From Planctomycetaceae bacterium (GTDB lineage: Bacteria > Planctomycetota > Phycisphaerae > Sedimentisphaerales > UBA12454), in contig JAJFVK010000019.1 of NCBI GenBank assembly GCA_021371795.1, forward strand, positions 248,001 through 312,000: 64,000 nt of DNA. Direction: 5' to 3'. The notes under the pieces were generated by a model that worked only from the letters and a program-made list of their open reading frames with translations, was not told where the DNA came from and did not search any database. The position numbers and the translations under genes were made by a program. Of this stretch, positions 27,994-34,879 are shown piece by piece. Positions within the stretch are counted from its first letter, which is position 1. The number at the start of each line of letters is the position of its first letter.

Positions 27994-28074
27994 CACGTCA
28001 TAGTGATGACGTGACTAAACTCCCCCGGCACAGGCCGAGGCTAAACGACAAACCCTGCCAAAGTGTTGGCAGGG
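27994..28074. repeat. Cluster of palindromic hairpins with AGTG tetraloops
   Basis: CACGTCAT-AGTG-ATGACGTG (27994-28013) and CCCTGCCAA-AGTG-TTGGCAGGG (28053-28074) are perfect hairpins with the same tetraloop, flanked by CTAAAC or CTAAC. Between them is a weaker palindrome with GGCCGAGG. The gene-free interval 27574-28087 holds these hairpins and otherwise AT-rich DNA with no supported reading frame. Related sites occur at 34832-34879 and 44781-44823. Confidence 0.65.
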
Positions 28075-28087
28075 CTAACCAAAAATG

Positions 28088-28735
28088 TTAGTATTGCGTC
28101 ATCCAATCATCGGCCAGGATAGCAAAATCTTTCATATTGACGATGCCGTCAAAATTGACATCGCTCAAAGGTATTTTTGTGGTATTTGCATGCCATTCAT
28201 CGCCATAAGCAAAACCGTCCGGTACCCAAATTTCTTGTATATCGCCGTATGTAAATGAAATCCGTTCCACGGGGGGATAGTTTGATGTTTGGGCATCAAT
28301 AGTATTAGGAACTTCCTTGCGAATGCCGGAAATATATGCGTTGTTCAATACCACCGTATAAAAGTGCTGTGTCGTACCGTCGCCGCTGGGATCGGGGCGG
28401 TAAAATTTAAATGTCGCCTGCAGCCTTTCGTGATTGCACCATGCTCTAAACAGCCGAGGCGTAGAACGGTCAAACTTCTTTAGAATGGAAACCGGAAAAT
28501 GGTCCCGCACCTCACCTGTGATGCCGTTTCTTGGATCCGGCTCGCCGACAAGCATGTGCGTATATGCTGATGCTTCGATTGTATTTTCCCGTCCCAGTGA
28601 AATTAGTGTTGAATCTCCTTGTATCCAGCCTTGATCTTGCCCAATCAGTGTAAGATGTACGGTTTCAGCACTGAAAGATACGGCTGTGAAAACAAAGCAA
28701 AACACGATTGACATGAGTAAGCAGGTAGTTTTCAT
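28088..28735 (-). CDS. Secreted Hcp-fold protein with dockerin-like C-terminus
   Basis: After a signal peptide (residues 1-23) the protein matches the Hcp fold of type VI secretion tubes: VHLTLIGQDQGWIQGDS, GRENTIEASAYTHM, GEVRDHFPVSILKKFDRSTP, LFRAWCNHERLQATFKFYRP, TQHFYTVVLNNAYIS and PPVERISFTYGDIQEIW, in the order seen in Hcp. The last 30 residues, SDVNFDGIVNMKDFAILADD, form a dockerin-like calcium motif usual in planctomycete surface proteins. A classical Hcp has no signal peptide, so this copy is probably exported to the envelope and used as a building block there. No T6SS gene is in the window. GGGGGA lies before the chosen ATG at 28735. Confidence 0.8.
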   Translation of the reverse strand: MKTTCLLMSIVFCFVFTAVSFSAETVHLTLIGQDQGWIQGDSTLISLGRENTIEASAYTHMLVGEPDPRNGITGEVRDHFPVSILKKFDRSTPRLFRAWCNHERLQATFKFYRPDPSGDGTTQHFYTVVLNNAYISGIRKEVPNTIDAQTSNYPPVERISFTYGDIQEIWVPDGFAYGDEWHANTTKIPLSDVNFDGIVNMKDFAILADDWMTQY

Positions 28736-28989
28736 AATACATTCCCCCATAAATGGATATTTTAGCCTGTAATTATACCGCTGAACATATCAAGATATCT
28801 GATAAAAGTCAAGTTTTATCTTTATTTGGGTCGTAATAATCGCGGAAACCGGATTTGGCAACAAGGTATTATGTACCGTAAAAAAAGGTTGAAATTTTTG
28901 TTACCTTTTTACGGCCGGATGCACTTAATCTATGTGAAAGTCTCGAAAAGCAACGTTAAAAGTGGCTCTTTTTCATTAAAATAAACCAA

Positions 28990-34831: not shown

Positions 34832-34879
34832 TTGTTGTTATAAACCCCGTCATCACTATGACGGGGTTTATAACAACAA
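34832..34879. terminator. Perfect 22-bp inverted repeat with CACT loop between valS and bfn
   Basis: TTGTTGTTATAAACCCCGTC (start of the left arm) and its complement enclose a four-base CACT loop, with 22 perfect pairs. It can end valS transcription, but the downstream gene's ribosome site lies directly after it. The core GTCAT-loop-ATGAC is the complement of the hairpin at 27994-28013, so it belongs to the repeat family too. Confidence 0.65.

Follow-up and report, generated by a model that had tools for sequence, protein, structure and literature searches.

The window, a 64,000-nucleotide stretch from a Planctomycetaceae bacterium of the order Sedimentisphaerales, encodes a 215-residue protein that is, judged by its sequence and modelled fold, a true Hcp, fitted with a predicted export signal and a C-terminal calcium-loop tag. 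We propose that this Hcp no longer belongs to the type VI secretion system (T6SS) and that, once exported, it is anchored through its tag to the cell surface or the matrix, as a putative ring scaffold; the probability of this joint reading is, in our estimate, about 0.5. It builds on what sequence comparison has established, namely Hcp homology, an added export segment, a tag shared with other proteins, absence of the T6SS and repeated independent origin, and it extends to signal cleavage, ring formation, calcium binding, a partner and a scaffold role, which we infer. Since an Hcp with an export signal and a tail is found in a genome devoid of T6SS, and since such refitting took place at least twice, a ring-forming part seems to be reused outside the cell.

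Inspection of the open reading frame places the start ATG at 28735, with a ribosome site (GGGGGA) upstream, and the stop codon at 28088-28090 on the minus strand. An alternative in-frame ATG at 28750 would make the 215-residue Hcp longer by five residues. Downstream of the gene, three differing palindromes with alike CTAAAC-type spacers follow in series (window 27994-28076). Only the gene-proximal one is terminator-like; the others occupy 28023-28040 and 27994-28013, and a variant of the farthest is found again at 34846-34865.

Table 1. Features of the exported Hcp gene in the window (residue numbers refer to the 215-residue product)
Feature	Position	Strand	Basis or remark
Whole gene: exported Hcp-fold protein with half-dockerin tail	28088..28735	-	215 aa plus stop
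Sec-type signal peptide MKTTCLLMSIVFCFVFTAVSFSA, residues 1-23	28667..28735	-	hydropathy and n-h-c layout by inspection
Hcp barrel, residues 24-183	28187..28666	-	Pfam/NCBIfam, PDB sequence matches, Foldseek, VIA
L2,3 extended (ring-stacking) loop region, residues 61-80	28496..28555	-	diverged from T6SS Hcps
C-terminal half-dockerin tail IPLSDVNFDGIVNMKDFAILADDWMTQY, residues 188-215	28091..28174	-	Pfam, orthologue comparison, tail-module search
Calcium-loop motif DVNFDGIVNMKD, residues 192-203	28127..28162	-	sequence; four orthologues identical or one residue different
Terminator-like hairpin	28051..28076	-	directly after the stop codon of the Hcp gene

The Hcp body named in the initial annotation is borne out by two curated profiles: Pfam T6SS_HCP (PF05638) matches residues 36-167 with 67 bits against a cut-off of 23.5 (E 2.6e-18), and NCBIfam TssD (TIGR03344) scores 98.6 bits against 58.9 (E 3.5e-28). 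The closest solved relative by sequence is the Myxococcus xanthus T6SS Hcp 5urw (E 3e-31 over residues 23-182). AlphaFold modelling of the core, with signal and tail trimmed off, reached a pLDDT of 70, and the full-length model, in which signal and tail are not well modelled, was weaker (pLDDT 52); both were built from four-sequence alignments. Foldseek matched an Hcp barrel (E 1.6e-12), and VIA comparison of the core model with the closest solved Hcps gave Z scores of 15.2-19.7 (best 2.6 Å over 159 residues), against around 9-10 for phage and eCIS tubes. The initial annotation had staked itself on this barrel, and fold prediction returned it. The protein resembles known Hcp/TssD proteins (e.g. 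5urw, 3he1, 6a2v) in passing the curated cut-offs, in its barrel fold and in its mature N-terminus. In contrast to the T6SS tube protein, it has a Sec signal of its own and a C-terminal tag, its genome is without T6SS, and its ring-stacking loop has diverged.

The claimed signal peptide is likewise Sec-like by hydropathy and layout, with a lysine, then a long hydrophobic run, then FSA ahead of the predicted cut (by eye and hydropathy), at odds with a T6SS component, which would carry no such peptide and would leave the cell through the apparatus. The predicted cut between SFSA and ETVHL sits exactly at the usual Hcp start (MAETVHL in cytosolic Hcps), as expected from a signal added onto a normal Hcp. 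The same layout is present in four orthologues, whose signals are kept in kind but not in letters. Export of the window Hcp by a predicted Sec-type signal is well supported.

A T6SS component would also be accompanied in the genome by TssC, TssK and other core genes. However, profile searches, on which all genome-wide statistics are based, found no VipB/TssC, no TssK and no Phage_sheath_1 (PF04984) in the window genome, a 2.85 Mb draft of 28 contigs that is 98% complete, and they returned one Hcp. The earlier statement that no T6SS lies nearby thus holds genome-wide, and the searches for TssC and TssK revealed no T6SS locus elsewhere that could use this Hcp; the many paralogues that had been predicted did not appear. 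An eCIS tube was ruled out by the lack of the phage-type sheath PF04984 in this genome. A phage origin was also rejected, PHROGs giving no match and a viral-contig scan no relative.

Four genomes of the same order (L073, L077, L079 and L087) share the full signal-Hcp-tail layout, and a TssC match was found in none of them. Compared with the window protein, these orthologues are 24-65% identical over the signal, 58-71% over the core and 81-91% over the final 32 residues. Purifying selection acts on core and tail between orthologues, with dN lowest in the tail (0.04-0.16 against 0.22-0.42 in the core). Since no paralogue exists in the window genome and no Hcp was found in five genomes of the same genus, the gene is accessory. 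A conserved operon partner was sought and rejected, the neighbours not being shared among nine related loci; together with the Hcp-less congeners, this marks the gene as a unit on its own that has often been lost or transferred horizontally.

In a tree of 34 Hcps, whose reference database rows L061-L063 bear an assumed T6SS label and stand outside the 122-protein count given below, the dockerin-tailed proteins fall into two clades, the second being sister to cytosolic Hcps from two TssC-bearing genomes. Forcing them into one clade, as a shared origin would require, was rejected (p-AU 0.0028). The two clades indicate that Hcp acquired an export signal and a tail of this kind on at least two occasions. 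Two neighbouring Hcp genes, each with a half-dockerin tail, are present at L078:3875-5043.

The dockerin motif assigned to the tail stands only in part. The tail contains a single 12-residue dockerin-type loop, DVNFDGIVNMKD, and a helix, whereas dockerin type I (PF00404) has two calcium-loop repeats and reaches the Pfam cut-off. Since Dockerin_1 matches over the second half of a dockerin only, scoring 15 bits where the cut-off is 22.9, we term this element a half-dockerin. Its calcium loop, conforming to the pattern DxNxDGx[IV][ND]xxD, is retained in all five orthologues, the window protein included, and the tail is better conserved among them than the Hcp core (72-91% against 53-71% identity), which indicates that the motif is not due to chance. 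The module is also frequent in the window genome, with 45 Dockerin_1 matches at E ≤ 1 and 68 tail-module matches at E ≤ 10 (35-126 per genome across the genomes searched). All 16 tail-bearing ORFs examined from this genome have a hydrophobic N-terminal stretch, and in 10 of these 16 the last loop begins ≤45 residues from the stop; the module is found in pairs and at non-C-terminal positions as well.

A C-terminal calcium loop on exported planctomycete proteins is common to the window tail, dockerin type I and the proposed planctosome (PMC6461901). Indeed, cohesin-dockerin systems have been proposed in Planctomycetes (PMC6461901), and cohesin-dockerin proteins are described there in Limihaloglobus sulfuriphilus of the order Sedimentisphaerales (PMC11557425). 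Unlike in the planctosome, the cohesin-like partners that had been predicted did not emerge from a PF00963 search of the window genome, the best match scoring 12.4 bits, under the cut-off of 24.1, although divergent cohesins could evade this profile. Five of six relatives tested also yielded no cohesin over the cut-off. In the same order, G287 possesses both a dockerin-tailed Hcp and two cohesin domains. The latter belong to a 1966-residue ORF (L190, G287:C1:2213032-2214213), a candidate partner for the dockerin-tailed Hcp.

Among 122 Planctomycetota Hcps, a hydrophobic N-terminal segment is present in 33 of the 40 from TssC-less genomes and in 1 of the 82 from TssC-bearing ones (nominal Fisher p 8.5e-22, which ignores shared ancestry, in a non-uniform sample where the former were fetched deliberately and the latter taken mostly as returned). 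The single case among 82 agrees with the earlier remark that known T6SS Hcps lack such a signal. The segment may act as a cut signal or as a membrane anchor, differing by member. The seven TssC-less Hcps that break this pattern are two pieces from G537, one of them truncated by a contig end, an L078 gene with an ambiguous start, an ambiguous case in G100, a G402 Hcp of the classical kind, whose T6SS may be absent from the assembly, and two poly-Hcp chains that begin with LEPR-XLL, one of them scoring slightly below its cut-off. In the taxonomic class of the window genome, roughly one quarter to one third of the Hcp-bearing genomes sampled lack a TssC match.

Other exported Hcps carry different termini. 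For instance, L091:2102-2761:- combines a signal-like N-terminus with a PEP-CTERM-type C-terminus over the cut-off, and L099:3911-4651:+, from a T6SS-bearing genome, bears a signal-like N-terminus and a weaker PEP-CTERM-type C-terminus. Six tandem Hcp domains are found in each of two single ORFs, of 1053 residues (L092:4008-7166:-) and 1556 residues (L093:2736-7403:-), with a LEPR-XLL-type start over the cut-off in the former and just under it in the latter, which additionally carries PKD and Ig-like domains; both occur in TssC-less genomes, of the same class as the window genome. Six Hcp copies per chain correspond to one ring. Six exported Hcps (L068, L070, L072, L082, L086 and L088) have in common a stretch of the GGNLEPxxPPGPTMxTLDEIY type after the hydrophobic segment, suggestive of a shared planctomycete module for export or linking.

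In the open-access literature searched, no account of Sec export of an Hcp by a bacterium lacking a T6SS was found. A survey of about 61,000 Hcps took out PEP-CTERM-bearing genes before tree building (PMC8262886), so such genes had already been seen but set aside. The Hcp-ETs described there also add a C-terminal part to an Hcp core, but they ride the T6SS and carry toxins, whereas the window protein has no T6SS and bears a 28-residue calcium-loop tag.

The core fold and length of the window Hcp are intact, including the length of the L2,3 loop. Engineered Hcp1 fusions serve to force hexamers. In these constructs (e.g. 4ksr GspE-Hcp1 and 6ap1 Vps4-Hcp1), Hcp acts off the T6SS as a six-fold platform, a possible working likeness, but they are man-made, whereas the window protein is natural and exported, with a putative hexamer. 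Stacking of Hcp hexamers into a tube depends on the L2,3 loop (PMC5874247). The window protein departs from T6SS Hcps at four of the six residues that they conserve in this loop, and two of these substitutions are shared by its whole clade. This speaks against stacked tubes without telling against single rings; we read it as a release of the window clade from tube stacking. All five proteins of this clade share the changes R66P, T74G, L99W, S137G, E158R and W168E, two of which fall within the loop. Some may lie in ring contacts, so they were counted against a ring.

Such clade-fixed changes at T6SS-conserved sites also favour a rival in which the exported Hcp fold has lost the ring and serves, anchored by its tail, as a monomeric or non-ring β-barrel binding domain, an adhesin or ligand carrier. 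Of 27 alignment columns conserved among 14 related Hcps of T6SS type, the window clade retains 61%, against 84% in the second dockerin clade, and the fusion of Hcp domains with PKD and Ig-like domains in one relative points in the same direction. We nevertheless consider loss of the ring less likely, since the tandem six-Hcp chains hint that six copies still matter and the barrel, with its L2,3 loop, has kept its fold and length. The tail, for its part, could be a PEP-CTERM-like sorting or envelope-targeting tag for an export or anchoring machine, not a means of calcium-dependent docking: many exported proteins in these genomes terminate in it, cohesins are mostly undetected, and other exported Hcps bear PEP-CTERM or LEPR-XLL signals. 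This seems unlikely, however, given the intact calcium-loop pattern DxNxDGxVNxxD, the occurrence of the module in pairs and away from the C-terminus, and the cohesin-dockerin proteins reported in Planctomycetes (PMC6461901, PMC11557425).

Two further explanations leave the protein within T6SS history. The sporadic presence of the gene would suit a decaying, now functionless relic left over from a lost T6SS, but the substitution pattern, with purifying selection on core and tail, disfavours it, and signal and tail were gained, not lost, at least twice, making a relic very improbable. An ordinary tube protein with a missed apparatus and a mis-called start is barely credible and largely refuted: although the TssD cut-off is exceeded and the genome is a draft in 28 contigs, neither TssC, TssK nor a phage-type sheath was detected at 98% completeness, and four orthologues, from genomes without a TssC match, have kept both the export segment and the tail. 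As for export and scaffolding, the two cohesin domains of G287 beside its dockerin-tailed Hcp count in favour; the lack of cohesins over the cut-off here and in five of six relatives, the one loop in place of the two of a true dockerin, and the absence of a paralogue, of Hcp in five congeners and of a conserved gene partner count against. Of the scaffold proposed in the initial annotation, export and independence from the T6SS are well supported, whereas no paralogue and no cohesin over the cut-off were found in the window genome.

If the window Hcp is indeed an exported scaffold, it would be exported by its own Sec signal, whose cleavage would leave a mature protein starting where a T6SS Hcp starts, and it would fold as an Hcp barrel outside the inner membrane. 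The C-terminal calcium-loop tag, common to many exported proteins of the same cell, would hold it at the surface or in the matrix. The hexameric ring would be kept, as single rings rather than a tube, thus presenting six tags per ring, and calcium-dependent binding of these tags could fix the Hcp ring as a multivalent surface or matrix scaffold.

More broadly, and only tentatively, Planctomycetota may have repeatedly adapted the phage-tail-derived ring of the T6SS tube for export and a structural use with no injection role, in the form of six-fold rings or six-Hcp chains held at the surface or in the matrix by varied anchors (half-dockerin, PEP-CTERM, LEPR-XLL or a membrane segment). Hcp is routinely read as a T6SS marker, and this inference fails in these lineages, where TssC-less genomes carry mostly export-signal Hcps. 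If rings do form outside the cell, this would clearly be an instance in which a contractile-injection part has found new use as a building block in the extracellular space, and the chains of six repeats would offer a natural covalent ring.
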